Source: Thermodesulfobacteriota bacterium (GTDB lineage: Bacteria > Desulfobacterota > Desulfobacteria > Desulfobacterales > Desulfosudaceae). From it: a stretch of 64,000 bases of DNA. This document shows positions 11,496 through 63,915 of this stretch, one piece after another; the stretch's first letter is position 1, and every line of letters begins with the position of its first letter. Location of the stretch: positions 62,001-126,000 of the forward strand of contig JBFMDX010000004.1 of assembly GCA_040753795.1 (NCBI GenBank), read 5' to 3'. Made by a program: the position numbers and the translations under genes. Under the pieces are notes generated by a model. That model made no database searches and had not been told where the DNA came from. It saw nothing but the letters and a program-made list of their open reading frames with translations.

Positions 11496-11517
11496 TGCGG
11501 AAAAGCTCCTTCTTCCC

Positions 11518-31108: not shown

Positions 31109-31147
31109 ATATGCGTCTCCCGTTGCTCGGTCCCTTTTTTGTTCGTC

Positions 31148-31170: not shown

Positions 31171-31200
31171 CCAGTTTATAAAAGCCCTGTTTCCGCCGGC

Positions 31201-32415
31201 TCATCCGCCGTGGGCTTCGATTATGCCTAAGTCCTTATCCCCCCGTCCGGACAGGTTAACCACGATGATGCTGTCCGCCGGCATTTGCGGAGCCATGCGG
31301 ATGGCGCCGGCCACGGCGTGGGCGCTCTCCAGTGCCGGAATAATGCCTTCCAGGGTGCACAGCCGGTGAAAGGCGGCCAGGGCTTCATCGTCGGTGGCGG
31401 TGAGGTAGCGCACCCGTTTCAGATCCTTGAGCAGGGAATGTTCCGGCCCCACGCCGGGATAATCCAGCCCCGCGGAAATGGAATGAACCGGCGCGATCTG
31501 GCCGTGCTCATCCTGCAGCACATAAGACTTGGAGCCGTGCAGGACGCCGGGGGTGCCGCGGTTGAGGGTGGCGGCATGGGCGGTAGTGTCCAGACCGTGG
31601 CCGCCGGCTTCCACGCCGATGATTTCCACCGGATCGTTTAAAAACGGATAAAACAGGCCCATGGCGTTGCTGCCGCCGCCCACACAGGCGATCAGCATAT
31701 CCGGCAGCCGCCCCTCCAGTGCCATCATCTGGTCGCGGGTCTCCTCGCCGATGATTTTCTGAAAATCCCTGACCATGGCCGGGTAGGGGTGGGGGCCGGC
31801 CACGGAGCCGATGACGTAAAAGGTGTCCCGCACGGTGGAGACCCAGTGGCGCATGGCCTCGTTCATGGCGTCCTTGAGGGTGCCGGTGCCGGACTTGACC
31901 GGCGTGACGGTGGCGCCCAGAAGCTTCATGCGCTTGACGTTGGGCGCCTGGCGCTCGATGTCCTCCACGCCCATGAAGACCTGACAGGCCATGCCCAGCA
32001 GGGCGGCGGCCGTGGCCGTGGCCACGCCGTGCTGACCGGCGCCGGTTTCGGCGATGACCCGTTTTTTGCCCATCCATTTAGCCAGCAGGGCCTGGCCGAT
32101 GGTGTTGTTGATTTTGTGGGCGCCGGTATGGGCCAGGTCTTCGCGCTTGAGATAAACGCGGCCGCCTTTTAAAAATTCCGTCAGGCGTTCGGCAAAATAA
32201 AGCGGGGTAGGCCGGCCCACGTAATCGGCCAGCAGGTGCTTGAGTTCCTGCTGAAAGACCTGATCGGGCATGATTTTCCGGCGCTTTTCATCCAGCTCCA
32301 GCACGGCCGGCATCAGGGTTTCGGCGATGTACATGCCGCCGTAAGCGCCGAAATGGCCGCGCTCGTCCGGATAAATCCCCACCGCCGGTATGACCTTATC
32401 AGATGGCGTTGTCAT
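31201..32415 (-). CDS. trpB: Tryptophan synthase beta subunit
   Basis: A 404-aa PLP enzyme that condenses indole with serine. The PLP-binding Lys is in '[17 protein letters not shown]', with '[19 protein letters not shown]' and the phosphate loop '[12 protein letters not shown]'. It is of normal length for the TrpB1 type. Its start overlaps the 3' end of trpF by 17 nt, and trpA follows after a REP-like hairpin. Confidence 0.97.
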
Positions 32416-49752: not shown

Positions 49753-49809
49753 ATTGTTGACAATCAAAAAACCAGGTTGTATTTTGTCGACAATCGACTG
49801 TTGACAGTC
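49753..49809 (+). promoter_or_regulatory. GntR operator cluster and autoregulated promoter
   Basis: Three related palindromes lie just before the GntR gene: ATTGTTGACAAT (49753-49764), TTGTCGACAA (49784-49793) and GACTGTTGACAGTC (49796-49809), all sharing TGT(C/T)GACA. A promoter is embedded in them. TTGACA (49757-49762) lies in site 1, and after 17 bp TATTTT (49780-49785) touches site 2. A repressor bound to these sites would block RNA polymerase. The start codon of the GntR gene is at 49829. Confidence 0.65.
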
Positions 49810-49828: not shown

Positions 49829-50563
49829 ATGACATTCATGGCCGCACAAAGTTTGCCGGAACAGATTGCCGACCACATCCGGGAAAAAATCATCCGGTTT
49901 GAGCTCAAACCGGGCGAAAACATTCGTGAAGCGCAACTGGCCGCCGATCTCCAGGTCAGCCGCAGCCCGGTCCGCGAGGCACTGAAGTTACTGGAAAAGC
50001 AGCGGCTGGTGGAACAGACCCCGCGCAAGGGAACCAAGGTCACCGGCCTTTCCAGTGAATACATCACCTCTCTTTACAATATTACCGGCGCCCTGATTAT
50101 GCTGGCCGCCAAAGAGTGTACGGAAAAAAGCACACCGGAGGACCTGCGAAAGATCAACCAGACCGTCCTTGACGCGGCCGACGCCGTGCGCCGTAAGGAT
50201 ATTCACGCTTATTACACGGCCTTTTTCGATTTCAGCCTGGCCTGTCTGAAGGCCGCCCGGGACCCGCTGCTGGAGGAAATGATTCTGGATCTGCTGCCGG
50301 GTGTCCGCCGCATGCAATATCTGACGTTTACGCTGCGTAGAGAAAGCCTGTATGAAAACCTGGCGGTTATCGAAAGAGGCAACGGCTATCTGCAGCAGGG
50401 AAACAGCAACATGGCCGTGGAAACGGTTTTTGAATACATCACCAAGGAAAAAGAGGTCGCCCTGAAAACACTGGAAACCGGACTTCAGATTATCAAGGAC
50501 CTGCCGGTCAGCACCGTCAGGGAACCTGCCGTCAAATCAAACGAACACCGGGAGCAATTATAA
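49829..50563 (+). CDS. GntR/FadR-family transcriptional regulator
   Basis: A 244-aa regulator. The N-terminal winged helix is 'IADHIREKIIRFELKPGENIREAQLAADLQVSRSPVREALKLLEKQRLVEQTPRKGTKV' (about residues 12-70), and the C-terminal helical FCD-type ligand domain begins at about residue 80. FadR-like regulators respond to organic acids or acyl-CoAs. It is the first gene of the plus-strand operon and probably represses it, given the three palindromes upstream. A second in-frame ATG is three codons in. The effector is probably a substrate or CoA ester of the reductase pathway, which is inference. Confidence 0.9.
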   Translation: MTFMAAQSLPEQIADHIREKIIRFELKPGENIREAQLAADLQVSRSPVREALKLLEKQRLVEQTPRKGTKVTGLSSEYITSLYNITGALIMLAAKECTEKSTPEDLRKINQTVLDAADAVRRKDIHAYYTAFFDFSLACLKAARDPLLEEMILDLLPGVRRMQYLTFTLRRESLYENLAVIERGNGYLQQGNSNMAVETVFEYITKEKEVALKTLETGLQIIKDLPVSTVREPAVKSNEHREQL

Positions 50564-50567
50564 CATT

Positions 50568-52043
50568 ATGGAAAAACAAGAAAAATTCTCTTTACCATCA
50601 GGGGCAACGGAAAACCCGGCTTTTCGGGAACTGCTGGAGCAGATCAGCAACACCAGAGAAATGCGGTTGCTGGCCGGAAACCTTATCCCCGAGCTGATCC
50701 GCCTGTGGGCGGTCAGCGGAACCGGCGCGGGCATGGCCAGAAGCACCTTCCGGAAAAGCGTCGCGGCTGCTGCCGGCGGTAGCATCAGAAACGCCATGCT
50801 GGATGAACAAGGGCTGGCCCAGGCGCCGGAACTGCATACGCTTGCGGGCGATCCGGGGTTCGCACGCCGGGCCTCCGCCCAGGCCGGGGAAATGGCCGGC
50901 AGCGTGCTGGCCGTGCTGACGAAAACCGCCGGAGTGATCGAAAGCCTTGACGTGAACGTGAAAAAGGAGCTGATCGAAACGATCATCCGCGATCTTTCCA
51001 CCGGCAAAAGCGCCACCCTGATCACCTCCTGCCTGCGCGCCGTAAACGACATTCATAAAAACGAACCCGGGTTCCTGGCCCGCGTTCTGGCCCCGGAGTT
51101 TGAAAAATGGCTCCGTAACATGGACTTCGGCGAACTAAAAGAGGTCCTCGAATCCAGCACCCCGGGAATTTCCACACTGGTCCAGATGATCAATACGACC
51201 CTGTGGAAATACCCTGCCAAGGTGATCTCGCTGGTGGTTCTGCTGCCCTCCTTCATTAATATAGCCCTGGACGCCATCGCCCAAACAGCCGGCTCCTTCA
51301 ACGAAAAAGGCACTCCCGACATGGTGGCCGACGTCCTGCTCTCCGTTTTAAAAGAAACGGACGCCCGGGCGGTGGCCCGGCTGATTAACGAACAGGCCGA
51401 AATGATCCGGGGCTTTCATGTGGGCTGCGCCCTGATCGGCGAGCCCGGCTCACCCCAGTTGCCCAACGATCTGTCCACCGTGCTCGATGCCGTTTTCAAA
51501 GGAATAAACCGTGACGTGCTGTGGAAAGCCAGGGGCGCGCTGGCGGATTTGAAAAGCCAGGCCAGTTGCGCTCTCACGGATGTCCTGGCGGACAATCCGG
51601 ACATACTGACCGGCATCCTGGCCTCGAACAGCGCGGTTCACAATGCCCGCATCCGGGCCATCAGCCACCGGCTGTCCACCCTGGAGGGGTTTGTTCCCGA
51701 GGCCATCACCGGCGCGATGGGTCATTCCCTGGCCGGACTGGATGTTCAGGAAGGCGCCAGTATTATAAATTCCGCGGCCGCGCTCCTGACCCGGCTGCTT
51801 GACGCCCGGCCTGAAGAAATCAAAGACAAGGCCAAAGCCCTGGTTGACGCCCTGGATCTCTACGGTGTTTCGCAGCTCATGGAAACAACCGGAGCGGTGG
51901 TCGGCCAGGCCCTTCGGCCGCTGGCCCGGGCCGTCGTCCCCGGTCTGGCGCGGGGGCTCTTCAGTGCCCTGACGGCCGAGGATGACGAATTCGAGGATAC
52001 CGCTGAAGCCGCACGGAAGACGCTGGCTGATTTACTCAAGTAA
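50568..52043 (+). CDS. Unknown helical protein in the reductase operon
   Basis: A 491-aa protein I do not recognise. It is almost entirely predicted alpha-helical, Ala/Leu-rich, with repeated patterns of 30-40 residues ('ELIETIIRDLSTGKSATLITSCLRAVNDIHKNEPG', 'MVADVLLSVLKETDARAVARLINEQAEMIRGF'). One hydrophobic stretch is 'VISLVVLLPSFINIALDAIA' (near residues 222-241). There are no Fe-S cysteine motifs and no signal peptide. It lies 4 nt after the GntR gene and 16 nt before the first reductase subunit, so it belongs to the operon. A scaffold or chaperone for the reductase complex is a guess. Confidence 0.55.
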   Translation: MEKQEKFSLPSGATENPAFRELLEQISNTREMRLLAGNLIPELIRLWAVSGTGAGMARSTFRKSVAAAAGGSIRNAMLDEQGLAQAPELHTLAGDPGFARRASAQAGEMAGSVLAVLTKTAGVIESLDVNVKKELIETIIRDLSTGKSATLITSCLRAVNDIHKNEPGFLARVLAPEFEKWLRNMDFGELKEVLESSTPGISTLVQMINTTLWKYPAKVISLVVLLPSFINIALDAIAQTAGSFNEKGTPDMVADVLLSVLKETDARAVARLINEQAEMIRGFHVGCALIGEPGSPQLPNDLSTVLDAVFKGINRDVLWKARGALADLKSQASCALTDVLADNPDILTGILASNSAVHNARIRAISHRLSTLEGFVPEAITGAMGHSLAGLDVQEGASIINSAAALLTRLLDARPEEIKDKAKALVDALDLYGVSQLMETTGAVVGQALRPLARAVVPGLARGLFSALTAEDDEFEDTAEAARKTLADLLK

Positions 52044-52059: not shown

Positions 52060-53199
52060 ATGTTTGATTCTTTTTACGAGGCCACGACCACCATTTTCAA
52101 CCAGTCGATTCAGGCCTGGAAGGAAAGCGGTAAAAAAGTCGTCGGCTACACCTGTTCCTATGTGCCGGCGGAAATTTTCTTCGCCGCCGATATTCTGCCG
52201 GTCCGCATCCGGGGCATTGAAACCGAAGGCATGGATATCGGCGACGCCTACTTCGGCCCCTTTATCTGCTCTTTTCCCAAATGCATCCTGCAGCTGGCCG
52301 GCAAGGGCAAATACCGCTTTCTGGACGGCGCCATCATTACCCCCGGCTGCGACGCCATGCGCCGGCTGGACGAATGCTGGCGGAAGGCCGGGGAGGATTA
52401 CCAGGGAATCGTGCCGCCGTTTTTCTATTATTTTGACGTACCCCATAAGACCCTGCCCCACGGCATGAAATGGTTCCAGGAGGAAATCCGGTATCTGATC
52501 GATTTCGTGCAAAAGCACTTCGGTCTCTCCATCAGCGACGAGGCCCTGCGAAAAGCCATCGCGCTTTACAACCAGGGCCGGCAGATGCTCCGGGAGCTGG
52601 AGGAGATCCGTACCCGGGCCGACGTGCCCATTACCGGGACCGAGGCGTTTGCCGTGACCGTGGCCGGCACGGTCATGCCCCGGGACGTGTACACGGAAAA
52701 ACTGGGCCGGCTCCTGGAAAGCCTCAAGACCCGACCGCCGGTTTCGGCCGGAAAAAAGCGGCTCATGGTCATCGGCAGCATCAGCGACGACATTGAGATC
52801 GTCGAGCTGATCGAAAAAAATCCCAACGCCCTGGTGGTGGCCGAAAACCTCTGCTTCGGCGTGCGCTACGAGGGAAACCTGGTGGCGGAAACCGGCGATC
52901 CGGTCATGGCCATGGCCGAGAGCTATCTGGGCGAGTGTACCTGCCCCCGGATGTTCGGCAAGTACCCGGAGCGACTGGAAATCCTCAAGGAAAAAATCGC
53001 CGCTGCCGCCATCGACGGCGTCATCATGCAGAACATCCGTTTCTGTGACCTGCACGGATCGGAACACGGTCTGCTGGAGCGGGACCTGGAAAAAGCGGGC
53101 ATTCCCTGCCTGAAAATCGAACGGGAATACGGCCCGCTGACGGACACCGGCCGCATGCAGATGAGAATTCAGGCCTTTCTGGAGAGAATCTCCAAATAG
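52060..53199 (+). CDS. 2-hydroxyacyl-CoA dehydratase / benzoyl-CoA reductase family subunit (BzdN/BcrC-like)
   Basis: A 379-aa Fe-S subunit of the HgdB/BcrC family. Likely cluster-ligand cysteines are in 'VVGYTCSYVPAEIFFAADILPVRI' (about Cys32), 'ITPGCDAMRRLDE' and 'QNIRFCDLHGSE'. Its size fits BzdN (about 380 aa) of the Azoarcus-type class I benzoyl-CoA reductase. Start 52060 has GGGAGG 9 nt upstream. The frame is open earlier, inside the preceding gene. With the next three genes it follows the order bzdN-O-P-Q. The actual substrate may be benzoyl-CoA, a substituted aroyl-CoA or another acyl-CoA. Confidence 0.85.
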   Translation: MFDSFYEATTTIFNQSIQAWKESGKKVVGYTCSYVPAEIFFAADILPVRIRGIETEGMDIGDAYFGPFICSFPKCILQLAGKGKYRFLDGAIITPGCDAMRRLDECWRKAGEDYQGIVPPFFYYFDVPHKTLPHGMKWFQEEIRYLIDFVQKHFGLSISDEALRKAIALYNQGRQMLRELEEIRTRADVPITGTEAFAVTVAGTVMPRDVYTEKLGRLLESLKTRPPVSAGKKRLMVIGSISDDIEIVELIEKNPNALVVAENLCFGVRYEGNLVAETGDPVMAMAESYLGECTCPRMFGKYPERLEILKEKIAAAAIDGVIMQNIRFCDLHGSEHGLLERDLEKAGIPCLKIEREYGPLTDTGRMQMRIQAFLERISK

Positions 53200-53226
53200 A
53201 ACCTACCGAAATTCAGGAGGACGGGT

Positions 53227-54627
53227 ATGAGAGCGGAAGTAAAGGAATATAATTTTGACTGGATGATGAACCGCGGCGTCGCGGCGGCTTCTCTGGCCGC
53301 GGACGGTACGGTCAAGGAAAGGGATCTTTTGCTGCGGTATGTGCCCTACTTCAAAGGCCCCCTGGAGGCCATTCTGGGGGAAGGCGAGCCGGGCGCGGAG
53401 TTTCTGAAAATGATGGCCAAATTCTTCGATAACCTGCTGACGGCCCACCAGAAAGGGAAAAAAATCGCCGCCACCACCTTTTGCTTTTCCCCGGCGATCC
53501 TTTATGCCGTGGACGCCGTGCCGGTGACCTTTGAAATCCTCACCGCCCTGGCCAGCATGATGTGGAAACGCGGCGCCTTCGACTACCTGGATTTCGCCTG
53601 CGAGGCCGGCCTGACGGAAACCTCCTGTTCCTCGCAGAGAGGCGCCATCGGCGCCTATTTCGCGGGGCTGGGAGAAGAACCCGACTTCATGGTCTGCGAC
53701 ACGCCCGGCGTCTGCGACACCAACGCCAATGCCTTTGCCTTTGCCTCCAACTACCTCAACAAACCCTTCTTCCAGCTCAACTATCCCCAGCGACTCAATG
53801 ACGGCCGCACCAGCCAGTATCATATCGACGATTTCAAGGCGCTGATCACGTTCCTGGAGGAGCAGACCGGCAACAAGATGGATTACGACCGGCTCAAACG
53901 CGTTCTCCTGGAAGTGGAAAAGCAGGACACCATCATCGCCGACATGGAAGACATGCAGATGGCCGTTCCCAGTCCGGTGCCGCCCCTGTACAACATGTTC
54001 ATCTACGCCGGCCGCTTCATCTGCTCCGGCCTGCCCGAGTACACCACGGCCCTTGAAAAAATGCGGACTGCCGTCCGGCGGAACCTGGAGAACGGAATCT
54101 GCGGCCTGAAATCAGGGGTCGAGAAAAAGCGGTTGTTCATGTGTTATATCGATCACTACACCGTGGACATGACCTTCTGGAAATGGCTCGACTACAAAGG
54201 ACTCTCTCACCTGGGTTCCATCCTGTCCAAAACCTTCATGGAAGGCACGGGCTATACCAAAGACATCGACGGGTCGGCCTATAAAATGGACACCAGTTCC
54301 GAGGAGGCCATGCTCAACAGCATCGCCCAGCTCAACGCCCGCCTGCCCATGGTCCGTTCCATCCGCGGTCCTTATGACCAGCCCAACATGTGGCTGGACG
54401 AAACCCTGGCCGTGGCCCGGGCCTACAAGGCGGATTGCATCATCTACAACGGCACGCCGGGCTGCCGCAACACCTGGGGCATGGTCAAACCGTTTGCCCG
54501 GGATCTTGAAAAAATGGGATATCCGACTTTTATCATGTATGACGACGCTTTTGACGATCGGGTGGAATCGTGGGAAAACACCAGAGCCCGGCTGGAAGAA
54601 TTTTTTACCGTAAGGGGGTTGCTATGA
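53227..54627 (+). CDS. 2-hydroxyacyl-CoA dehydratase / benzoyl-CoA reductase family subunit (BzdO/BcrB-like)
   Basis: A 466-aa larger subunit. Conserved features are 'TTFCFSPAILYAVDAVPVTFE' (Fe-S Cys), 'EAGLTETSCSSQRGAIGAYFAG', 'VCDTPGVCDTNANAFAFASNY', 'MDTSSEEAMLNSIAQLNAR' and 'YNGTPGCRNTWGMVKPFARDLEKMG'. Its size matches BzdO/BcrB. With the 379-aa subunit it would form the catalytic heterodimer that receives electrons from the ATP-driven activator. AGGAGG precedes the ATG. The stop overlaps the activase ATG by 4 nt. Confidence 0.85.
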   Translation: MRAEVKEYNFDWMMNRGVAAASLAADGTVKERDLLLRYVPYFKGPLEAILGEGEPGAEFLKMMAKFFDNLLTAHQKGKKIAATTFCFSPAILYAVDAVPVTFEILTALASMMWKRGAFDYLDFACEAGLTETSCSSQRGAIGAYFAGLGEEPDFMVCDTPGVCDTNANAFAFASNYLNKPFFQLNYPQRLNDGRTSQYHIDDFKALITFLEEQTGNKMDYDRLKRVLLEVEKQDTIIADMEDMQMAVPSPVPPLYNMFIYAGRFICSGLPEYTTALEKMRTAVRRNLENGICGLKSGVEKKRLFMCYIDHYTVDMTFWKWLDYKGLSHLGSILSKTFMEGTGYTKDIDGSAYKMDTSSEEAMLNSIAQLNARLPMVRSIRGPYDQPNMWLDETLAVARAYKADCIIYNGTPGCRNTWGMVKPFARDLEKMGYPTFIMYDDAFDDRVESWENTRARLEEFFTVRGLL

Positions 54628-55466
54628 GTATTGTCGCCGGATGCGATGTCGGTTCGCTGACATCCAAGGCCGTTATCATGAACGGCCAGAAAATTATCGG
54701 ATCAGCTATCATCCGCTCCAAGGCCCGGCCCGAGGAGTCGGCCATGGCGGCCATGGATGAGGCCCTGGGGTCGGCCGCAAAGGCGGCGGCCATGGACAAA
54801 CCCCTGGCGGCGGCCGGGACAACACTGAACCAGATCGCCTATTCCGTCGGTACCGGATACGGCCGGGATAAAATACCCTTCATCAACGAAACCCGCTCGG
54901 AAATCGCCTGCCACGGCAAAGGCGCCCGCTGGATGGTGCCGACGGTGAGAACCGTGATCGACATCGGCGGTCAGGACTGCAAGGCCATCAAGTTAAATGA
55001 CGCCGGCGAAGTGGAAAATTTCATCACCAACGACAAATGCGCCTCGGGCACCGGCCGCTTTCTGGAGGTCATGGCCGATGTCCTGAATGTGGGCATCCAT
55101 GAGCTGGGAGAAATGTCCGCCCGGGCGCGTTCCCCGATCATGCTGGCCTCCACCTGTACGGTCTGGGCCCAGGCGGATGTCATCAAGTACCTGAACTCGG
55201 GGTACCTGCTGGAAGATATCGGCGCCGGCATCAACAGCGCCATGGCCAAGCGGGTGGCCATCCTGGCCAACACCATCAAGGTGGAAAAAGAGATCTGCAT
55301 GACCGGCGGCGTGGCCAAAAACAGCGGCGTGGTCGCCACCCTGGAAAAGATTCTCGGGCACCGCATCCGGAAAATCAGGCGGGCCGATCCCCAACTGGCG
55401 GGCGCCATTGGAGCGGCGGTATTCGCGTTTGAAAAACTCAATGGGCAGCAGGGAGAAAAGATATGA
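54624..55466 (+). CDS. BadF/BcrA-type activator ATPase 1 (BzdP-like)
   Basis: A 280-aa ASKHA-fold ATPase. 'AGCDVGSLTSKAVIM' is phosphate loop 1, 'VIDIGGQDCKAIKL' phosphate 2, and 'MTGGVAKNSGV' the adenosine motif. The bridging [4Fe-4S] cysteines are in 'NDKCASGTGRFLEVM' and 'ASTCTVWAQADV'. ATP hydrolysis drives low-potential electron transfer to the partner subunits. It overlaps the preceding and following genes (ATGA each) and probably forms a heterodimer with the next gene product, as BzdP/BzdQ or BcrA/BcrD do. Confidence 0.9.
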   Translation: MSIVAGCDVGSLTSKAVIMNGQKIIGSAIIRSKARPEESAMAAMDEALGSAAKAAAMDKPLAAAGTTLNQIAYSVGTGYGRDKIPFINETRSEIACHGKGARWMVPTVRTVIDIGGQDCKAIKLNDAGEVENFITNDKCASGTGRFLEVMADVLNVGIHELGEMSARARSPIMLASTCTVWAQADVIKYLNSGYLLEDIGAGINSAMAKRVAILANTIKVEKEICMTGGVAKNSGVVATLEKILGHRIRKIRRADPQLAGAIGAAVFAFEKLNGQQGEKI

Positions 55467-56245
55467 TTACAGCAGGCTGTGATATCGGTTCGCTGACCGC
55501 CAAGGCCGTTATATTAAAAGACAATAAAATAATCGGCCAGGAAGTGATCCGCGTCAAAACCAATCCGGCGGAATCCGCCAACGAGGTCCTGCGGCTGGCC
55601 CTTGAAAAGGCCGGGGTTTCCCAGTCGGATATCCGGGCCGCGGTCGGTACCGGTTACGGCAAGGATCATATCTCCTTTGCCGCTTCGACCCAGTCCGAAA
55701 TCTCCTGCCACGCCAAGGGCGCCTGGTGGAACCTGCCGTCAGTCCGCACCATCATCGACATCGGCGGTCAGGACGCCAAGGCCATCCGCATCGATGAAAA
55801 AGGCAACGTCGCCCGCTATATTTATAATGACAAATGCGCTGCCGGCACCGGCCGTTTTCTTGAGGTCATGGCCAGGGCGATGGAAGTGAAGCTGGAAGAG
55901 ATGGGCGCTCTTTCCGCGCAGGCAAAGGAAAAAATCCGGATTTCCAACCAGTGCGTCATCTTCGCCGAAACCGAGGTGGTCTCGCTGATCAACGAAGGAC
56001 GGGATGTCCGCGATATCATCAACGGCCTGCACCATGCCATGGCCAACCGGGTGGCATCCCTGGCCAAAAGCATCGAGGTTCACGAAGACGTGGTCATGAC
56101 CGGCGGCGTGGCCAAAAACAGCGGCATGTTCAACGCCCTGTCCGAAGGACTGGGGGTTCCGGTCAAGGCCCTGCCCATCGATCCGCAGATCAACGGCGCC
56201 CTGGGCGCCGCCCTGTTCGCCGCGGAACTGGCGGCCGGAAAGTGA
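55463..56245 (+). CDS. BadG/BcrD-type activator ATPase 2 (BzdQ-like)
   Basis: A 260-aa ASKHA ATPase paralogous to the previous one. It has 'AGCDIGSLTAKAVIL', 'IIDIGGQDAKAIRID', Fe-S cysteines in 'NDKCAAGTGRFLEVM' and 'SNQCVIFAETEV', and 'MTGGVAKNSGMFNALS'. All nucleotide and cluster motifs are intact. Together with the upstream ATPase it would make the electron-activating module of the class I reductase. It is followed by the 246-aa Cys-motif protein 9 nt later. Confidence 0.9.
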   Translation: MITAGCDIGSLTAKAVILKDNKIIGQEVIRVKTNPAESANEVLRLALEKAGVSQSDIRAAVGTGYGKDHISFAASTQSEISCHAKGAWWNLPSVRTIIDIGGQDAKAIRIDEKGNVARYIYNDKCAAGTGRFLEVMARAMEVKLEEMGALSAQAKEKIRISNQCVIFAETEVVSLINEGRDVRDIINGLHHAMANRVASLAKSIEVHEDVVMTGGVAKNSGMFNALSEGLGVPVKALPIDPQINGALGAALFAAELAAGK

Positions 56246-56254
56246 CGTCCGCAC

Positions 56255-56995
56255 ATGGGCCTGTTTGATCATCACCTGGAGCAGATCAGGGCGTTTCTTG
56301 GCACCCGGACCGGACAATCGCCGGAAATGGTGTTTACCGCCGCGCCCGACCCGGACTGGCCTTCCGGCGGTAACAGCAATCTGGTGCTGTCGGCCGACAC
56401 GGCCGTGGAGCTGGGCAGCCCTAAAACCGCCGCCACCTCGTTTCTGCTGTGGACGGACCGCCCCGCCGCCGTCGATCACGGCAAAATCCACCTGATCGGA
56501 CCGGACATCTTCCGGGAAACCCGGCCGCTGACCCCTTTTGGTAAAGCGGTTCTGGTGGAGGTTTCCGGTTTTGACGAAACCAACAGCTACGATCGCTGGC
56601 GGGAGATGGAACTGGCCAAGTACGATGTCAGCCTGGCCGGCTACATGATGCGGGCGGTATCCCAGTACCAGCGGGAGTGGAGCCGGATCAGCCGGAAAGC
56701 GGTGGCTGACGGCTTTTCCCTTGCCCTGCTGGGCGGCTCCCTAATCCGGGAGTTGAGGAAAAAGCCCTATGTCCGGGGCGTGGAAATCGTTTTTGTCACC
56801 TCGACCGAAGCGGATGTGCTGGCCCTGAAGACCATCGGCGACGGCGTGGCGGAAATCACCGGCGCCATGAACAAAATGGTCGAGGAGATGGATTTTGATT
56901 GTTCGTCCTGCGAATTCAAGCCGGTCTGTGACGATGTGTCGGAACTGCGCAGCATGCGCAAGGCCATGAAGGAAAAAACAAAAACCAGCGGATGA
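56255..56995 (+). CDS. Unknown protein with C-terminal CxxCx5C motif, faint resemblance to acetyl-CoA synthase beta region
   Basis: A 246-aa protein not clearly assigned. The middle contains 'AGYMMRAVSQYQREWSRISRKAVADGFSLALLGGSLIRELR' and 'VEIVFVTSTEADVLALKTIGDGVAEITGAMNKM'. The end is 'DFDCSSCEFKPVCDDVSELRSMRKAMKE', giving CxxCx5C at about residues 217-226. This order reminds me of a segment of the CODH/ACS beta subunit (CdhC/AcsB), but the protein lacks the rest of that enzyme. It sits between the two reductase/activase modules and may be an electron-transfer or scaffold protein. That is inference. No strong ribosome site. Confidence 0.5.
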   Translation: MGLFDHHLEQIRAFLGTRTGQSPEMVFTAAPDPDWPSGGNSNLVLSADTAVELGSPKTAATSFLLWTDRPAAVDHGKIHLIGPDIFRETRPLTPFGKAVLVEVSGFDETNSYDRWREMELAKYDVSLAGYMMRAVSQYQREWSRISRKAVADGFSLALLGGSLIRELRKKPYVRGVEIVFVTSTEADVLALKTIGDGVAEITGAMNKMVEEMDFDCSSCEFKPVCDDVSELRSMRKAMKEKTKTSG

Positions 56996-57004
56996 AAGTG
57001 TCGG

Positions 57005-58123
57005 ATGAAAACCAACCTGTTTGACCCTTTTCTGGAAGAACCCGCCGGCCCCCTGGTCCAGCAGGCCATGGAAAACGGCGGCATCGCCGTCGGCTACACG
57101 TGCAGCTACGTCCCGTCCGTGCTGCTGTCAATTCCGCCGCTGTTTCCTGTCCGAATGCGGGCTCCGGGAGCGTCCGGAACGGAACTGGCCGATATTTATC
57201 TGTCCAAGCTGACCTGCTCCTACACCCGCAGCCTGCTGGAATTTTCCATGGATTTTCGCTATGACTTTCTGGGCGGCTGGGTCCATGCCGCCAGCTGCGA
57301 CCACCTGCGGCGGCTGAACGACAACATGACCTACCTGCTGTCCCCGGATTTTTCCCACATCATCGACGTGCCGCACCGGGCCGGAAAAGAAGGGTTGGAC
57401 TGGTTCCTGGAGGAGCTGAAAATTCTGATCGGGCGGCTTGAAACTCACTTTGGCCTGACCATCTCCGACGACGATCTTGCCCGGGCCATTGCCGATTACA
57501 ATAACTTTGTCGGGCTGCTGACCTCCGTTGCCGAGCGCCGCAAAGAAGACCTTCCGCCGCTGTCAGGAACGGAATTTCATAAAATGATGCTGGCGGCTTT
57601 CACCTCTCCCCGCCATCTGATCCGGAAACCCATCGAAACCTTTCGGGACAGCGTCCGGGAACGGAAAAACATCAAGGCCCCGCGGGCCCGGCTGATGCTG
57701 GTCGGCGGGCAGATGGACGATCCCCGCTATATCGATACCATCGAATCCACCGGCGCCGTGGTGGTGGCCGACCGGTTCTGCACCGGCTCCATCCCCGGGC
57801 TGGATCCCATTGGTCCGGCGGAATCTCCGCTTCGCGCCATCGCGGAGCACACGCTGCTGGCCCCCTCCTGCCCGCGCATGATGGAGGATTTTGACCGGCG
57901 GCTGAAACAGATCGTGGACACGGCCGCGGCCTACCGAGTGGACGGCATCCTTCTGGAGTTTATCAAATTCTGCGACACCTGGGGCGTCGAGTCAGCCTCG
58001 CTGGTGGCCGCCTTGCGGGAATCCGGTCTCCGGGTTTTATCTCTGGAACGGGAATACAGCGGCACCGGCCTGGGACAGCTTCAGACCCGGGTACAGGCCT
58101 TTCTGGAAAGCATGGGAAAATAA
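57005..58123 (+). CDS. 2-hydroxyacyl-CoA dehydratase family small subunit, second module
   Basis: A 372-aa paralogue of the BzdN/BcrC-like protein at 52060. It has 'AVGYTCSYVPSVLLSIPPLFPVRM', 'HAASCDHLRRLND', 'SPDFSHIIDVPHRAGKEGLDWF' and 'LLEFIKFCDTWGVESA', so the three family cysteines are kept. It is clearly diverged from the first copy (for example PGCD becomes ASCD), so it is unlikely to be redundant. It lies 9 nt after the 246-aa gene and 2 nt before its partner. The substrate is unknown. Confidence 0.85.
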   Translation: MKTNLFDPFLEEPAGPLVQQAMENGGIAVGYTCSYVPSVLLSIPPLFPVRMRAPGASGTELADIYLSKLTCSYTRSLLEFSMDFRYDFLGGWVHAASCDHLRRLNDNMTYLLSPDFSHIIDVPHRAGKEGLDWFLEELKILIGRLETHFGLTISDDDLARAIADYNNFVGLLTSVAERRKEDLPPLSGTEFHKMMLAAFTSPRHLIRKPIETFRDSVRERKNIKAPRARLMLVGGQMDDPRYIDTIESTGAVVVADRFCTGSIPGLDPIGPAESPLRAIAEHTLLAPSCPRMMEDFDRRLKQIVDTAAAYRVDGILLEFIKFCDTWGVESASLVAALRESGLRVLSLEREYSGTGLGQLQTRVQAFLESMGK

Positions 58124-58125
58124 TA

Positions 58126-59526
58126 ATGAACCTTGTCCGCTCGACGCTATATGCCAAACACGTGATTTCGAACTGGACGGCCATCGCCGGCATGGGCTGG
58201 CGCAACGGTCCGATAAAAACCCTTCGCAATCTTGAGCGTTATCCCTGGATGAAGGTCTTGCTGCGGGCCAACCTGCTAAACGAAAAATTCGGAAAAAACC
58301 GGGATGACGCTTATTATGAAGCCACCCTGCTGGTGATTTCCTATGTGGTCAAGGGGTTTGTCGAAATTCTGGACGACATGTTCCTGCGGGGCGAACGGCT
58401 GATCATTCACGAGGACATGGTTCCGCCGGAAATTTTTCGGGCCATGGGGCTGACGCCGTTCATGGCCGAACTCCTGGGCATCGCCCTGCCCATGATCGAT
58501 CCCCATGCCGTGGAACCATACATCGACCGCTCGGAAAACGCGGGCGTGCCGCCGGATGTCTGCAGTCTGCCCAAGAGCACCATGGGTTTCGTCCTGGCCG
58601 GTGAGCTACCCCCGGGCCTGGCGCTGATCTCCTCCAACCTGCCCTGCGACGGCGGCATGTCGTCCTATACCCTGATTGAGCGCACCCTTAACCTGCCAAC
58701 GTTCCGACTGGACATTCCCCATCATTTCTACAACGACCGGGCGAGAGACTATTTTACGGAAGAACTGCGGCGGCTTATCCGCTGGCTGGAGACCCACACC
58801 CCGGGAAAAATGAACTGGGACAGGCTGGCCGCCATCTGCAATGAACGGAACCGCATGGTGGAGCAGGAACTGGAGCTTTGGGACATGCTCAAAACCCGGC
58901 CGGCGCCGCTGGCCGCCGAACCGATTTATTTGAGCCATCTCTGGGGCGCCAACGTGTCTCCGGGAAAGCCACAAACCACCCTGCTGTTCAAACGCCTGTG
59001 CGATCTGGCCCGGAAAAACCTTCAGTCCGGAAAAGGCGCCCTTCCCAATGAAAAGTACCGGGCTTTGCTGTGGAACCCGCCGCTGCTGCATGCCGTGGAC
59101 CTGTTTAACTGGGCGGAAACCGCCTACGGCGTATCGCTGATTATCGACAGCATGTCTTACAATCGCCGGGAACCCTATATCGACACCTCCTCCGAAGAGA
59201 CCATGCTGCGGGGCCTGGGCATGAACATCATGGAGGGTCCCATGGCCCGTCACACCCGCGGTCCGGCCCAGAACTATCTGGATGATATTTTCGACATGAT
59301 CAAGCAGTTCGACATTGACATGCTCTGGGTGGCCGGCCACGTAGGCTGTAAAAACACGGCCGCCTTAAACGGCGTGCTGCGGGAAAAATGCCGGGAACAC
59401 AAACTGCCCCTGCTGATCATCAACTACGATTTGAGCGACCCGCGCATCGTCTCCAGAGACGGCATTCTGGAGCAGGTCAACCATTTCATGGAAAACATCA
59501 TGAAGGCCCGGCGCCTGGATATATGA
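58126..59526 (+). CDS. 2-hydroxyacyl-CoA dehydratase family large subunit, second module
   Basis: A 466-aa paralogue of the BzdO/BcrB-like protein, more diverged. 'GVPPDVCSLPKSTMGFVLAG' carries a Cys, followed by 'ISSNLPCDGGMSSYTLIERTLNLPTFRLDIPHHF', 'IDTSSEETMLRGLGMN' and 'VAGHVGCKNTAALNGVLREKC'. The N-terminal family segment 'C.SP.I..A....P' present in the first copy is missing and replaced by a different helical region. The latter may indicate another substrate or electron route. It overlaps the region before the third ATPase gene. Confidence 0.8.
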   Translation: MNLVRSTLYAKHVISNWTAIAGMGWRNGPIKTLRNLERYPWMKVLLRANLLNEKFGKNRDDAYYEATLLVISYVVKGFVEILDDMFLRGERLIIHEDMVPPEIFRAMGLTPFMAELLGIALPMIDPHAVEPYIDRSENAGVPPDVCSLPKSTMGFVLAGELPPGLALISSNLPCDGGMSSYTLIERTLNLPTFRLDIPHHFYNDRARDYFTEELRRLIRWLETHTPGKMNWDRLAAICNERNRMVEQELELWDMLKTRPAPLAAEPIYLSHLWGANVSPGKPQTTLLFKRLCDLARKNLQSGKGALPNEKYRALLWNPPLLHAVDLFNWAETAYGVSLIIDSMSYNRREPYIDTSSEETMLRGLGMNIMEGPMARHTRGPAQNYLDDIFDMIKQFDIDMLWVAGHVGCKNTAALNGVLREKCREHKLPLLIINYDLSDPRIVSRDGILEQVNHFMENIMKARRLDI

Positions 59527-59537
59527 CGGGAGAAAAA

Positions 59538-60344
59538 ATGAGTTCTGAAAACGGTTTCTACGCCGGCTGCGACGTGGGCTCCACCACCGGCAAAGCGGTC
59601 ATCATTAAAGAAAACAAAATCGTCGGGTCGGCCATCATGCCCGGGGAGATCGATCCCGGGGAAACCGCCTCCCGCGTGCTGGAAATGGCCTGCCGGCAGG
59701 TTGCGGGCCTGTCGGGCATCAGCGGCCTCACCCGGCTGATCGGAACCGGATACGGCCGCAACGAAGTCCCCTTTGCCCATGATAATATCTCGGAAATCAC
59801 CTGCCATGCGTCCGGCGTCTTTTTCTGCAAACCGGACGTTCGCACCGTCCTGGATATCGGCGGCCAGGACGTCAAAGCCATCGCCATGGACGAAAACGGC
59901 CGGGTCCGCGAGTTTGTCATGAACGACAAGTGCGCCGCCGGCACCGGCCGTTTTCTGGAAATGATGAGCCGAATCTTCAAAATGGACCTGGACCAGTTTT
60001 CCGATCTCTCCCTCCAGGCCCGAGCCGTCATTCCCATCACCTCCCAATGCAGCGTTTTTGCTGAAACCGAGGTCATCAGCCTGCTCAGCAAAAAAAAGCC
60101 CGCCGCCGACATCGCCGCCGGCATCCAGGCATCCATTGCCAAACGCAGCTTCACGCTTTTAAAACGGGTCGGCATCCAGCCCAAAGTGACCGTTACCGGC
60201 GGCTGCTCCAAAAGCAAGGGGCTGATCATACACCTGGCCCGCCTGTTGAGAATGGAACCGGAACCGCTGCCCGTCGATCCCCAGTTGATGGGCGCCCTGG
60301 GCGCCGCGGCCGAAGCCCGAAAGCAGGCCACCGGTAATAGATAA
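59538..60344 (+). CDS. BadF-type activator ATPase 3
   Basis: A 268-aa ASKHA activase for the second module. It has 'AGCDVGSTTGKAVII', 'VLDIGGQDVKAIAMD', Fe-S cysteines in 'NDKCAAGTGRFLEMM' and 'TSQCSVFAETEV', and 'VTGGCSKSKGLI' in place of the usual GGVAKN. As a lone ATPase for its module it may be a homodimer, as in 2-hydroxyacyl-CoA dehydratase activators (HgdC/CompA). The ATG at 59538 has GGGAG 5 nt upstream. An earlier in-frame ATG at 59523 overlaps the preceding stop. It is the last gene of the operon. Confidence 0.88.
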   Translation: MSSENGFYAGCDVGSTTGKAVIIKENKIVGSAIMPGEIDPGETASRVLEMACRQVAGLSGISGLTRLIGTGYGRNEVPFAHDNISEITCHASGVFFCKPDVRTVLDIGGQDVKAIAMDENGRVREFVMNDKCAAGTGRFLEMMSRIFKMDLDQFSDLSLQARAVIPITSQCSVFAETEVISLLSKKKPAADIAAGIQASIAKRSFTLLKRVGIQPKVTVTGGCSKSKGLIIHLARLLRMEPEPLPVDPQLMGALGAAAEARKQATGNR

Positions 60345-60454: not shown

Positions 60455-60485
60455 TTGACTTCTGTTGCCCCTTCAGGTGTATAAT
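60455..60485 (+). promoter_or_regulatory. Promoter of the DUF1302/DUF1329 genes
   Basis: TTGACT at 60455-60460 and a perfect TATAAT at 60480-60485, preceded by TG, spaced by 19 bp. The resulting leader of about 95 nt is pyrimidine-rich with repeated TTTGTCTTT-like units before the AGGAGG ribosome site of the DUF1302 gene. Confidence 0.6.
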
Positions 60486-60584
60486 AAATCCGCTTTCATG
60501 ATGTTCTTTTGTCTTTTGTCTTTATTTTTGTCTTTACCGTTGTCTTGGTTTTTGTCCCTAATTAACTCTTTTTCAGGAGGGCTT

Positions 60585-62531
60585 ATGAAACACAAAACAT
60601 CACACCAACGTTTCCCCTGGTTGTTTTCAAAAGGATTTCTTTTGGTTGCGGCGGTTCTCTTATCCGGCGCACTAAATCCGGCGTCCGCTTTCCAGTTTGA
60701 AAAAGGCGACCTGAGGGGCAGTCTGGACACGACGCTATCTTATGGCCTGCAATGGCGTGTCCAGTCTCAGGATGATTCCATTATCGGCCTGACCAACGGC
60801 GGGAAGGCTTATTCCGTCAACGGCGACAACGGCAATTTGAACTTTGATAAAGGTCTGGTCAGCAATGTACCCAAAATTTCATCCGAACTGGAGCTGAAGT
60901 ATAAGAATTTCGGTGCGTTTGCCAGAGGCTGGGCCTTTTATGACTTTGCGGTGGAAAACCACCATATGGACAAAGCCGAGCTGACGAATGATGCCCTTGA
61001 CCTGGTGGGCAGTGATGTCAAGCTTCTGGACGCGTATGTTTCGGGAAATTTTGACATCGCCGACAAGCCGCTTGGCATTCGCGTGGGAGACCAGGTGGTC
61101 AGCTGGGGGGAGGGAACCTTTTTTACGGGTGGCATTAACACCATCAACCCCATGGATGTCAGCGCCATCCGGCTTCCCGGCGCCGAATTGAAGGAAGCCC
61201 TTATCCCCGAAGGAATGGTTGTCGCCTCCATGGGGATTTCGAGCAACGCCTCTTTTGAAGGCCTCTATCTGTATGACTGGGACTACACCGACATTGATCC
61301 GTCCGGATCTCTTTTTTCCACTTCAGACTCCGTCGGCGAGGGCGGTGAAAAGGTGGTGCTGGCGTTTGGATCCATTTCCGATGAAGGCACCGATCTGGGC
61401 TCCATGGGATTTGATCCGGACTTTCTGATGGTATCGCGGGGCCCCTCCGACAAGGCGGATGATAACGGGCAATATGGCCTGGCCTTCCGGTATTTAGCGG
61501 AAGCCATGAACGACACGGAGTTCGGTCTTTATTATGTGAATTACCACAGCCGCCTGCCCATATTAAGTACCCGGACGGGAACCGCCACGGGCGTGGCGTC
61601 AGCGTCAGCCGCTGCCTTCAACCAGACGGTAACGGCCATAACGCAACAGCTGATGGCCGCCGGAATGGATGCCGCGACCGCGCAGGCCACGGCCGTATCA
61701 AAAAGCGCCCCTTTGCTGGTCGATGCCTACGCTCAAACCGGTTATTATTATACCGAATATCCGGAAGACATCCCCATGTGCGGCCTGAGTTTCAATACCA
61801 GCCTCGGCTCAACCGGAGTCGCCCTGCAGGGTGAAGTCTCCTATCGTAATGACATGCCGCTGCAGATCGATGACGTGGAGATGGTTCTGGCCTACCTGTC
61901 ACCCATTGAATTCAATCCCTCGTACAAGGACAACCAGGTCGGCATCTTCGGCGCTGATGAGATCATTCACGGCTATATTGAAAAGGACGTTATCCAGACA
62001 CAGGTAACCGCTACCCAGGTCTTCGGGCCGACCCTGGGCTCGAACAGCTTTACGCTGCTCGGTGAAGTCGGTTACACCCGCGTGCAAGACATGCCGGATA
62101 AAAGCGAACTGCGCCTGGAATCCGCCGGTACCTATACCTCCGGTAACCCCTCTCAGGCGGTTCTGCCGCAGACGGATCCCACCAAGCCCTTTGGCGGCGC
62201 CCATTACGGGAAGGCGGCCGAATCGTCCGACCATTTCGCCGACGCCGATTCGTGGGGATACCGGTTGATGGCCAAACTCAACTACGAGAACGCCATCGGC
62301 CCGGTGGGACTGTCCCCATATTGCGCCTGGCAGCATGATGTTGCGGGAAACTCGCCCGCGCCCGGCGGCAATTTCATCGAGGACCGCAAGGCGGTTACGG
62401 TAGGCCTGACGGGGCTTTATTTAAGCGCCTGGTCGGTGGATGTAAGCTATACGAACTTTTTCGGCGCCGACCGGTACAACCTGATTAACGATCGTGACTT
62501 TATTCAAACCAACATCAAGTATTCATTCTAA
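60585..62531 (+). CDS. DUF1302 outer-membrane protein
   Basis: A 648-aa exported barrel protein. The signal peptide covers about residues 1-35 ('FLLVAAVLLSGALNPASA'). The DUF1302 hallmarks are 'DTTLSYGLQWRVQ', 'GVRVGDQVVSWGEGTFFTGGINTINPMD' (with I for the second residue), 'RLPGAELKEALIPEGMV' and a C-terminal 'INDRDFIQTNIKYSF' ending in Phe. Such proteins accompany DUF1329 proteins and are linked to uptake or envelope handling of hydrophobic or aromatic compounds. The ATG at 60585 has AGGAGG 5 nt upstream. The frame is open 40 codons earlier, which would cover the promoter. Confidence 0.85.
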   Translation: MKHKTSHQRFPWLFSKGFLLVAAVLLSGALNPASAFQFEKGDLRGSLDTTLSYGLQWRVQSQDDSIIGLTNGGKAYSVNGDNGNLNFDKGLVSNVPKISSELELKYKNFGAFARGWAFYDFAVENHHMDKAELTNDALDLVGSDVKLLDAYVSGNFDIADKPLGIRVGDQVVSWGEGTFFTGGINTINPMDVSAIRLPGAELKEALIPEGMVVASMGISSNASFEGLYLYDWDYTDIDPSGSLFSTSDSVGEGGEKVVLAFGSISDEGTDLGSMGFDPDFLMVSRGPSDKADDNGQYGLAFRYLAEAMNDTEFGLYYVNYHSRLPILSTRTGTATGVASASAAAFNQTVTAITQQLMAAGMDAATAQATAVSKSAPLLVDAYAQTGYYYTEYPEDIPMCGLSFNTSLGSTGVALQGEVSYRNDMPLQIDDVEMVLAYLSPIEFNPSYKDNQVGIFGADEIIHGYIEKDVIQTQVTATQVFGPTLGSNSFTLLGEVGYTRVQDMPDKSELRLESAGTYTSGNPSQAVLPQTDPTKPFGGAHYGKAAESSDHFADADSWGYRLMAKLNYENAIGPVGLSPYCAWQHDVAGNSPAPGGNFIEDRKAVTVGLTGLYLSAWSVDVSYTNFFGADRYNLINDRDFIQTNIKYSF

Positions 62532-62553
62532 CCAAAAGAATAGGAGATCGATT

Positions 62554-63915
62554 ATGCTGAAAAAAACGCTTTTACCCATAGGTCTTTTGCTGTTGTTCGC
62601 CATGGTCGCTTCTTCAGCCTGGGCCGTGTTATCTTCCGAGGAAATCGCCCGGCTGGGCAAGGATCTGACGCCGCTGGGAGGCGAAAAGGCCGGGAATGCC
62701 GCCGGCACCATTCCCGCCTGGGACGGGGGCATTACCACGCCGCCGGCCGAGTATAAGCCCGGCATGCATTATCCGGACCCCTATGCCGGCGACAAAAGCC
62801 TGGTTACCATTACCAAGAGCAATATGAGCCAGTACGCCGATAAACTGACAGCCGCCCACAAAGCCATGCTGGAACAGTATGATACGTTTAAAATGAACGT
62901 CTACCCGACCCACCGGAGCGCCGCCTGCCCGGAACGGATTTACGAGGCCACCAAAAAATCCGCGGCTACGGCCGAGCTGCTGGACAATGGCTACGGCGTA
63001 AAGAATACCGCTATCGGTATTCCCTTCCCCATTCCCAAAACCGGACTGGATGTGATCTGGAACCACATCCTGCGGTATCGCTGCGATAGAGCTGCCCGCT
63101 CCATCGCTCAGGCGGTGCTGACCCGGGGGGGCGAGTACACCCTGGTCGAAATGAAAGACGAGTTTGACATGCTTTACGCCCATGAAGGGATGACCCCGGA
63201 AACACTGGGGAATGTAATCACTTATTTTAAACAGGAAGTGGTCGCGCCGGCGCGTCTGGCCGGCGGCATCCTGCTGGTACATGAAACCATGGACCAGGTC
63301 AAGGAACCCCGGTCGGCCTGGATTTACAACCCGGGCCAGCGCCGGGTCCGGAGAGCGCCCAATGTCGCCTATGACAATCCCGGGACGGCTTCCGACGGCG
63401 TCAGAACGACGGACCAGTTTGACATGTTCAGCGGGGCCACGGACCGCTATGACTGGAAACTGGTGGGAAAAAAGGAAATCTACGTTCCTTATAACGCCTA
63501 CAAGCTTCACAGCGACAAGCTGACCTACAAGGAAATCCTGACCCCCCTGCACATCAATCCCGATGTCTGCCGGTACGAGCTTCACCGGGTCTGGGTCGTG
63601 GAAGCCACCTTGAAGGACGGCAGCCGTCATATTTATAAGCGCCGGACGTTCTATGTGGATGAAGACTCCTGGCAGATTGTTTTCTCCGATATCTATGATA
63701 ATCGGGATCAGCTCTGGCGTTTTTCCGAAGGCCATGTCATCAACTACTATAACGTGCCGTCCTTATGGACGACCCTGGAAGTCCACGGCGATCTTCAGTC
63801 CGGCCGATATCTCGCCCTGGGTCTGTATAATGAAAGCAGTGTGTATGATTTTGACATCAAACGGACCAAGGAAGACTATATGCCGGCCGCCTTACGGCGC
63901 GAAGGCACCAGGTAG
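62554..63915 (+). CDS. DUF1329 exported protein (LolB/LolA-like)
   Basis: A 453-aa exported protein. The signal peptide is 'LLPIGLLLLFAMVASSAWA', followed by 'LSSEEIARLGKDLTPLGGEKAGNAAGTIPAWDGGITTPPA', the DUF1329 start, and 'PFPIPKTGLDVIWNH', 'YNPGQRRVRRAPNVAYDNPG' and 'RRTFYVDEDSWQIVFSDIYDNRDQLWRF'. The fold is related to lipoprotein carriers, and it acts with the DUF1302 partner in the periplasm. AGGAGAT precedes the ATG, 22 nt after the DUF1302 stop. The two are co-transcribed and end at a strong terminator. Confidence 0.87.
   Translation: MLKKTLLPIGLLLLFAMVASSAWAVLSSEEIARLGKDLTPLGGEKAGNAAGTIPAWDGGITTPPAEYKPGMHYPDPYAGDKSLVTITKSNMSQYADKLTAAHKAMLEQYDTFKMNVYPTHRSAACPERIYEATKKSAATAELLDNGYGVKNTAIGIPFPIPKTGLDVIWNHILRYRCDRAARSIAQAVLTRGGEYTLVEMKDEFDMLYAHEGMTPETLGNVITYFKQEVVAPARLAGGILLVHETMDQVKEPRSAWIYNPGQRRVRRAPNVAYDNPGTASDGVRTTDQFDMFSGATDRYDWKLVGKKEIYVPYNAYKLHSDKLTYKEILTPLHINPDVCRYELHRVWVVEATLKDGSRHIYKRRTFYVDEDSWQIVFSDIYDNRDQLWRFSEGHVINYYNVPSLWTTLEVHGDLQSGRYLALGLYNESSVYDFDIKRTKEDYMPAALRREGTR

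Follow-up and report, generated by a model that had tools for sequence, protein, structure and literature searches.

The 64,000-nucleotide stretch of Thermodesulfobacteriota DNA analysed here (the window; contig positions 62001–126000; the genome comprises 4.75 Mb on 41 contigs) contains an operon that probably encodes an ATP-driven reductase working at very low potential. With a probability of roughly 0.58 we suggest that this operon and its counterparts in other genomes, which we call the cassette, form a new group of their own in the superfamily of the benzoyl-CoA reductases (BCR), 2-hydroxyacyl-CoA dehydratases and double-cubane cluster proteins (DCCP), that the system works like a class I BCR, and that a small protein derived from acetyl-CoA synthase (ACS), here termed ACSL, serves as its iron–sulfur partner. 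The superfamily comprises some of the strongest biological reductants, and few of its members have known substrates. In the cassette, which is found under Desulfobacterota and Spirochaetota labels in numerous, almost exclusively uncultured anaerobes, a reductase of this type is combined with an ACS remnant and a nickel-type ATPase. The cassette suggests a chemistry for which we found no published assay and would connect ATP-driven Birch-type reduction with the nickel enzymes of one-carbon metabolism.

The operon is composed of the following genes; these and the flanking genes discussed further below all lie on the forward strand:

49829–50563, + strand, GntR/FCD regulator, first gene of the operon (Pfam GntR 66.9 bits, FCD 40.4 bits)
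50568–52043, + strand, U491, 491 residues, all-helical, without known family, directly 5′ of M1S
52060–53199, + strand, M1S, small HGD-D subunit of module 1, 379 residues (HGD-D 302 bits)
53227–54627, + strand, M1L, large HGD-D subunit of module 1, 466 residues (HGD-D 166 bits)
54624–55466, + strand, M1A1 (A1), activase of module 1 with altered motif, 280 residues (BcrAD_BadFG 195 bits, TIGR00241 233.3)
55463–56245, + strand, M1A2 (A2), activase of module 1 with usual motif, 260 residues (BcrAD_BadFG 212 bits, TIGR00241 258.6)
56255–56995, + strand, ACSL, stand-alone ACS-derived protein, 246 residues (Pfam CdhC 41.7 bits, cut-off 24)
57005–58123, + strand, M2S, small HGD-D subunit of module 2, 372 residues (HGD-D 263 bits)
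58126–59526, + strand, M2L, large HGD-D subunit of module 2, 466 residues (HGD-D 198 bits)
59538–60344, + strand, M2A (A3), single activase of module 2, 268 residues (BcrAD_BadFG 186 bits, TIGR00241 229)

An earlier note on this DNA had described the seven module genes between 52060 and 60344 with these sizes, this order and three activases, and this description is confirmed. All seven genes score far above the Pfam gathering scores (28.4 bits for HGD-D, 31.5 bits for BcrAD_BadFG), and the three activases pass the TIGR00241 cut-off of 125.4 bits with 229–259 bits. Because of these domain scores and because the gene order is kept in other genomes, the operon is not a chance arrangement. The module genes and ACSL overlap by 4 bp or are separated by gaps of 2–27 bp on one strand, and the operon starts ahead of module 1 with the regulator gene and U491, which lie 4 and 16 bp from the respective next gene. 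The two modules are also as strongly diverged as had been claimed: M1S and M2S share 33.5% identity, M1L and M2L 23.7%, the two activases of module 1 48%, and A3 is 39–46% identical to these. What had been missed is the ACSL gene between the modules, in our view the most telling part of the operon.

The first line of evidence comes from the residues that would hold the cofactors. For BzdNO, the available sections of the structure paper describe an [8Fe-9S] double cubane held by six cysteines of BzdN, with four basic residues placed at its distal sub-cluster, and a [4Fe-4S]-OH2 cluster bound by C95, C128 and C380 of BzdO together with Glu65 and His131 (PMC11971306). As the six ligands we took the cysteines common to BzdN (C36, C73, C100, C263, C293, C327), M1S and M2S. 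They are C32, C70, C97, C265, C295 and C329 in M1S, complete in 70/71 full-coverage homologues, and C33, C71, C98, C259, C289 and C323 in M2S, complete in 25/25; the cysteine and glutamate counts cover homologues above 400 bits for M1S, 200 for M2S, 500 for M1L and 150 for M2L. An [8Fe-9S] double cubane is predicted for each of the two small subunits. Of the six cysteines, HadC is without two and MbdN without three in the printed alignments. Among the basic residues of the distal cluster, R53 and H330 are present in 72/72 M1S rows and R267 in 69/72 (lysine in three), while R290 is not kept. The sole M1S row without all six cysteines is a paralogue in the same genome (L043). It belongs to a second module-1-like set with the order U491-S-L-CooC (G000:C26:16.6–21.2 kb), and its small subunit, which has lost three of the six cysteines, is a natural variant for comparison.

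In M1L the cluster cysteines C134, C163 and C413, the glutamate E103 and an extra cysteine, C86, are invariant in 90/90 rows, and in M2L C146, C174 and C408 are kept in 27–28 of 28 rows and E115 in 27 of 28. When profiles are aligned, the three cysteines and the glutamate of M1L fall on those of BzdO and Cys86 falls in a gap (6 BzdO-type sequences). Both large subunits are predicted to hold an active-site [4Fe-4S] cluster with three cysteine ligands and a catalytic glutamate. The Cys86 of M1L evidently has no counterpart in BzdO and would lie close to the stretch of sequence lining the benzoyl pocket.

Activases use two cysteines as ligands of their iron–sulfur cluster, and both are present in all three activases of the window. 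The usual motif FAE(S/T)E reads FAETE in M1A2 and M2A, and FAE is found in 70/71 homologues of M1A2 and 21/22 of M2A. In M1A1 it is replaced by WAQAD, and W-(A/V)-Q-A-(D/E) occurs in 71/71 homologues (the motif counts cover matches above 250 bits). The BzdQ-type genes of the phylum deviate at the same glutamate (FAK or YAK, 4/4) and their BzdP-type partners keep FAE (5/5). Judged by these motifs, an asymmetric activase pair is common to module 1 and class I BCR, and M1A1 and M1A2 are presumed to be partners in a heterodimer. The cysteine and glutamate sets and the activases lend support to the proposal of the earlier note that the operon would specify a low-potential ATP-driven reductase-type system.

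The second line of evidence is ACSL. With hhalign, residues 31–227 of ACSL align with residues 336–536 of the ACS encoded in the same genome, a 744-residue open frame, with a probability of 98.2 and an E-value of 3e-14. The cysteines C216-x2-C219-x5-C225 align on the CTLC...HVC segment of ACS, which holds the first three cysteines that bind the [4Fe-4S] part of the A-cluster. ACSL is evidently a descendant of an ACS domain. A complete A-cluster requires four [4Fe-4S] cysteines and a C-G-C nickel motif; ACSL ends after the third cysteine and contains neither the fourth cysteine nor the C-G-C motif. The three cysteines are present in 62/62 rows covering the site and in 31/31 rows chosen by ACSL (five are the same records); one protein, L082, is cut off earlier, and rows below 240 bits, dropped from the first alignment, are part of the cysteine count. 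Within the phylum ACSL occurs in 25 of 297 sampled genomes including the present one, which has one copy besides its real ACS.

In the cassettes of other genomes ACSL is followed by a P-loop ATPase gene. The best of 17 solved matches of this ATPase is CooC (3kje, E 9.7e-15), and a CxC pair, which binds nickel in CooC1, is found in 57/57 sequences, so that the ATPase is evidently of the CooC type and a nickel role is predicted. A part in nickel chemistry is possible for the system, and it is this CooC neighbour that points to it. The arrangement resembles that of ACS (AcsB/CdhC) with AcsF/CooC, as ACSL corresponds to the part of the ACS domain that precedes the A-cluster motif and reaches into it, and a CxC-containing CooC-type ATPase comes next; it differs in the shortened ACSL and in that there is no gene for carbon monoxide dehydrogenase among the annotated recurrent neighbours.

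The third line of evidence is the conservation of the whole gene set. Screening named genome contigs for matches to the M1L profile yielded 78 loci from the best 80 of 94 confirmed places; after removal of the duplicates L058, L094 and L118, 80 non-redundant loci were compared, in which the genes were found by profile matches on all frames. Of the 78 scan loci 11 carry Spirochaet- labels and 4 Smithella labels, the remainder being mostly Desulfobacterales or unnamed Delta-/Proteobacteria. All titles begin with MAG except for the complete isolate genome of Desulfoluna limicola ASN36 (L113), which contains the GMC flavoprotein, U491, module 1, ACSL and CooC. With few exceptions the order in the 80 loci is [GMC flavoprotein or two acyl-CoA dehydrogenases]-U491-M1S-M1L-M1A1-M1A2-[second M1L]-[Fer4 protein]-ACSL-CooC-[M2S-M2L-M2A]-[AOR], the brackets marking optional genes.

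Counts corrected for contig ends leave the window aside and cover the remaining 79 loci; for U491 a flank of at least 2.5 kb before M1S was demanded, and for module 2 at least 4 kb beyond CooC. U491 is present in 56/56 loci with enough flank, ACSL in 49/52 and CooC likewise in 49/52. CooC is the next gene after ACSL on the same strand in 54/55 cases. The 5′ partner is a GMC flavoprotein in 32/45 loci and a pair of acyl-CoA dehydrogenases in 7/45; both together occur in none and neither in 6. The M2S gene is found in 19/37 cassettes and M2A homologues in 22/80 loci, and two loci (L172, L199) have ACSL, CooC and module 2 with no module 1 nearby. The proposal that the two modules perform consecutive steps is therefore not required. 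In ten cassettes (L060, L069, L074, L078, L084, L087, L101, L124, L125, L128) a second copy of M1L is present, which suggests alternative active sites working with one small subunit.

The association was also examined from the side of ACSL. Among 38 ACSL loci outside the present genome, 30 have an HGD-D gene, 29 an activase and 22 a CooC gene. Nine of these loci also belong to those chosen by M1L (five recognised by an identical ACSL, in addition L051, L052, L054 and L055); leaving them aside, HGD-D is found in 21/29. ACSL accompanies several kinds of HGD-D module in these loci.

U491, the constant 5′ neighbour, matches no Pfam or NCBIfam family at E<=0.001. Its AlphaFold2 model reaches a pLDDT of 87.2 with 61 sequences (46.4 with 6) and has no Foldseek match at E<=0.001; compared with solved folds by VIA-align the best Z is 5.0, in rows mainly spanning residues 11–106. 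The cassette GMC flavoprotein has a weak similarity, below the cut-offs, to choline dehydrogenase and cholesterol oxidase. The GMC or acyl-CoA dehydrogenase neighbours hint at a redox reaction of an organic substrate, perhaps an acyl compound.

Taken with these observations, the mechanism that we infer would run as follows. Electrons of the ferredoxin type would enter the activases, an A1/A2 heterodimer in module 1 and an A3 homodimer in module 2, whose potential would be lowered by ATP hydrolysis. The electrons would then reach the small subunit with its [8Fe-9S] double cubane and from there the three-cysteine [4Fe-4S] cluster of the large subunit, where the substrate, probably a CoA ester, would be reduced one electron at a time with the conserved glutamate acting as acid/base. 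ACSL would be a dedicated iron–sulfur partner, either for electron entry or as a docking subunit, and would probably be served by the CooC-type nickel ATPase.

Several observations weigh against this reading. The operon of the window does not contain a CooC gene of its own; the nearest homologue lies on another contig (C26:16624–17346, 52% identity) behind the second U491-S-L set. ACSL is missing in 3/52 cassettes with enough flank (L064, L128, L134). Conversely, 8/38 ACSL loci have no HGD-D gene nearby, several of these being contig ends, and three of the eight (L053, L201, L202) show none in 11–20 kb. M2S retains R53 alone (25/26) of the distal-cluster basic residues of BzdN. The place of His131 of BzdO is taken by asparagine in M1L (90/90) and by glycine in 24/28 M2L rows; MbdO of 3-methylbenzoyl-CoA reductase likewise has no equivalent of His131 in the printed alignment. 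Finally, the cofactors are assigned by alignment and stay predicted. As a separate observation, the ACSL of L053 (G015:C48, 9209–9931) has the conserved cysteines and lies beside recC/recB/recD-like genes, with no HGD-D in 20 kb.

The strongest competing explanation takes module 1, and perhaps module 2 as well, for a divergent class I BCR that acts on an aromatic or polycyclic acid, with ACSL as an accessory. The earlier note had likewise compared module 1 with bzdN-O-P-Q, and in the order and sizes of the genes this comparison holds. Module 1 also has the six cysteines of BzdN, the three cysteines and glutamate of BzdO, and two activases of which one is altered at the same glutamate. BzdN (8s02_B) is in addition the best solved relative of M1S (E 1.5e-44) and M2S (E 1.1e-26). 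The available sections of PMC12016498 report a tetrahydronaphthoyl-CoA reductase of the ATP-dependent class I type for the naphthalene-degrading cultures N47 and NaphS2, and BzdN above the cut-off occurs in 5/297 sampled genomes of the phylum; both soften the statement that an ATP-driven set is notable in Deltaproteobacteria.

What does not hold is the identity with BzdNOPQ or Bcr, which is rejected on the basis of the NCBIfam cut-offs and the large-subunit tree. The equivalog cut-offs (bzdN 453.8, bzdO 448.6, bzdQ 380.2 bits) are missed by every subunit: M1S reaches 151.8 and M2S 89.9 bits with bzdN, M2L 23.8 with bzdO, where M1L has no match at E<=0.001, and the activases 165–204 bits. The Bcr families (TIGR02259, 02260, 02261, 02263) are not reached either (M1S 126.9 vs 421.15 bits, M1L 24.6 vs 486.55, activases 106–185 vs cut-offs of 312.85 and 578), and the genome itself has no BzdN match at E<=1e-70. 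In the unrooted large-subunit tree of 73 rows all 57 rows of M1L, M2L and other ACSL-linked proteins lie on one side of a branch supported by 100/98; on the other side are BzdO-type proteins (9 and the solved one, a group of 10 rows at 100/99), HadB, MbdO, DCCP and three further modules of the same genome. The matches of the large-subunit profiles to HadB, BzdO, MbdO and DCCP are all distant, with E 1.7e-13 to 2.6e-5 for M1L, HadB being best, and near 1e-13 for M2L with all four.

The trees were built from samples of the M1S, M1L and activase rows and, in the tree with more BzdN-type rows, of the M2S rows; those other than the large-subunit tree give the following picture. In the small-subunit tree M1S (100/99) and M2S (100/100) form groups that join at 98/89 together with two further rows, taken from cassette or ACSL loci. 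With more BzdN-type rows M1S and M2S join at 98/91 and the deepest split from BzdN, HadC and MbdN is weak (89/36), the small-subunit trees carrying long reference branches. In the activase tree BzdP-type (99/98) and BzdQ-type proteins (100/100) form groups of their own, and M1A1, M1A2 and M2A join without them at a weak 85/79. The BzdO, BzdP and BzdQ comparison rows were named by their position beside BzdN-type genes and by motif, and 5 of these 10 loci hold a BzdN above the cut-off. Further points against an aryl-CoA reductase are the replaced His131, the lack of a ring-cleavage gene among the recurrent neighbours annotated with Pfam (7 proteins of 6 families) and the constant partners ACSL, CooC and U491. 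To our knowledge ACSL, CooC and U491 partners occur with no BCR. The cassette differs from BzdNOPQ also in the extra Cys86 of M1L and in the GMC flavoprotein. An aryl-CoA reductase of this kind is rather unlikely, though the substrate may be aromatic.

Less likely still is a role of the HGD-D modules as reductive activators, with the product of ACSL and CooC as the real catalyst, an ACS-derived nickel–iron–sulfur site that would need ATP-driven reduction as corrinoid and ACS centres do. The invariable CxC of CooC, its position directly behind ACSL, the three A-cluster cysteines in every row covering the site and the several kinds of HGD-D module beside ACSL would fit. However, ACSL stops before the fourth [4Fe-4S] cysteine and the C-G-C nickel motif, and the large subunits keep the full set of cysteines and glutamate, which would be needless in pure activators. 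A related proposal, which keeps the HGD-D heterodimer as catalytic partner, has a low but appreciable probability: the cassette might be an undescribed ATP-driven nickel–iron–sulfur reductase, in which ACSL, loaded by its own CooC, carries a nickel- or site-differentiated [4Fe-4S] centre and works with the double-cubane heterodimer and its four-cysteine active site on a substrate too hard for ordinary ferredoxin enzymes.

It is very improbable that the operon encodes a reductase that modifies lipids or terpenoids, as enzymes of the PlsA/Ger type in this superfamily do. Such a reductase would act on a hydrophobic substrate handled by a transporter, and two genes that may contribute to such a transporter follow the operon:

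60465–62531, + strand, DUF1302 gene, flanking, 3′ of the operon
62494–63915, + strand, DUF1329 gene, flanking, 3′ of the operon

Beyond the window these are followed by YCF48-like and MMPL genes. Such a set is associated with the transport of hydrophobic compounds, and the four genes are probably a transporter for a hydrophobic compound in a transcription unit likely to be separate. The GMC partner with its weak likeness to choline dehydrogenase and cholesterol oxidase could be added in favour. On the other hand, the transporter genes adjoin the cassette in 1/80 loci, the present one, many loci ending before that point, and proteins like PlsA with two fused activases are separate genes in this genome: three long open frames (1052–1467 residues; G000:C1:539–541 kb, C2:202–204 kb, C21:57–60 kb) have two activase-family matches each and presumably resemble the PlsA/Ger lipid enzymes. 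Within the favoured reading of an ATP-driven reductase with ACSL as partner, the flavoprotein or dehydrogenase neighbours and the local transporter are hints concerning the substrate.

The least probable explanation, 2-hydroxyacyl-CoA dehydratases of the amino-acid fermentation type, can appeal to the common superfamily and to HadC as second best solved relative of M1S, but the HadBC cut-offs of 700 and 750 bits are far from reached (M1S 157.5, M2S 73.6, M1L 45.5), HadC lacks two of the six cysteines kept by M1S and M2S, module 1 has two activases, one of them altered, instead of one, and HadB and HadC fall apart from both modules in the trees, the HadC split being weak in one of them. HadBC, which is 2-hydroxyisocaproyl-CoA dehydratase, works with an activase and has in common with the modules the HGD-D heterodimer and, in the large subunit, the three-cysteine cluster and the glutamate. 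The clear grouping with amino-acid dehydratases that the earlier note had named as refuting its reading is not seen.

DCCP and its reductase share with the cassette the six-cysteine double-cubane set and ATP-driven reduction, and the large subunits have DCCP among their best solved matches. Identity with DCCP was rejected, as the NF040772 cut-off of 350 bits is not reached (M1S 182.7, M2S 150.5, M2L 60.8, M1L 34.1) and the genes come as pairs. According to the available sections of PMC11971306, DCCP forms homodimers in which each subunit carries a double cubane, whereas the present modules are predicted to be heterodimers with a single [8Fe-9S] and a single [4Fe-4S] cluster.

A description of the cassette was not found in the open-licence literature, as far as the displayed parts of the long result lists go, and the available sections of the paper on benzene-degrading BzS1 (PMC13416013), of PMC10418091 and of PMC7306483 do not describe it. 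A parallel is the isr operon of a putative isoprene reductase, for which the available sections of PMC10134865 list a flavoprotein, a ferredoxin and the nickel chaperones HypA/HypB. As far as these sections go, here too nickel chaperones of its own belong to a reductase operon that encodes no classical nickel enzyme, but the operon has no HGD-D or ACS-derived protein and the chaperones are different.

With respect to regulation, a promoter-like sequence TTGACA-17-TATTTT is found at 49757–49785; it is a weak candidate, 8 promoter-like sites being found vs 4.5 expected. Homologues of the GntR regulator occur in 23/80 cassette loci (in the fetched stretch, on either strand). The window has no Rfam match at gathering scores.

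Homologues of the cassette-heading GMC flavoprotein at E<1e-70 are found at four places in the genome, one of them in the window (16104–17417, + strand; 37% identity, E 2.4e-73). Directly after it lies a fragment similar to the final part of the activase family (17435–17629, + strand, 31 bits), and the two at 16104–17629 are perhaps the remnant of another cassette.

Three further observations concern the remainder of the window. At 28371–32415 (− strand) a TaqI/N6-type DNA methylase gene abuts trpA with one shared base at the end of a trpEGDC-BA run, which is an odd coupling. A pyruvate-formate-lyase-like glycyl radical enzyme (11518–14052, − strand) lies beside a methyltransferase gene (10710–11555, − strand) and is followed by an alkylmercury-lyase-like gene (14246–15088); no activating enzyme is among the ten proteins scanned. 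At 62–6052 (− strand) Eco57I/MmeI-type methylases, an AIPR protein and an AAA ATPase occur together, perhaps as a phage-defence island.

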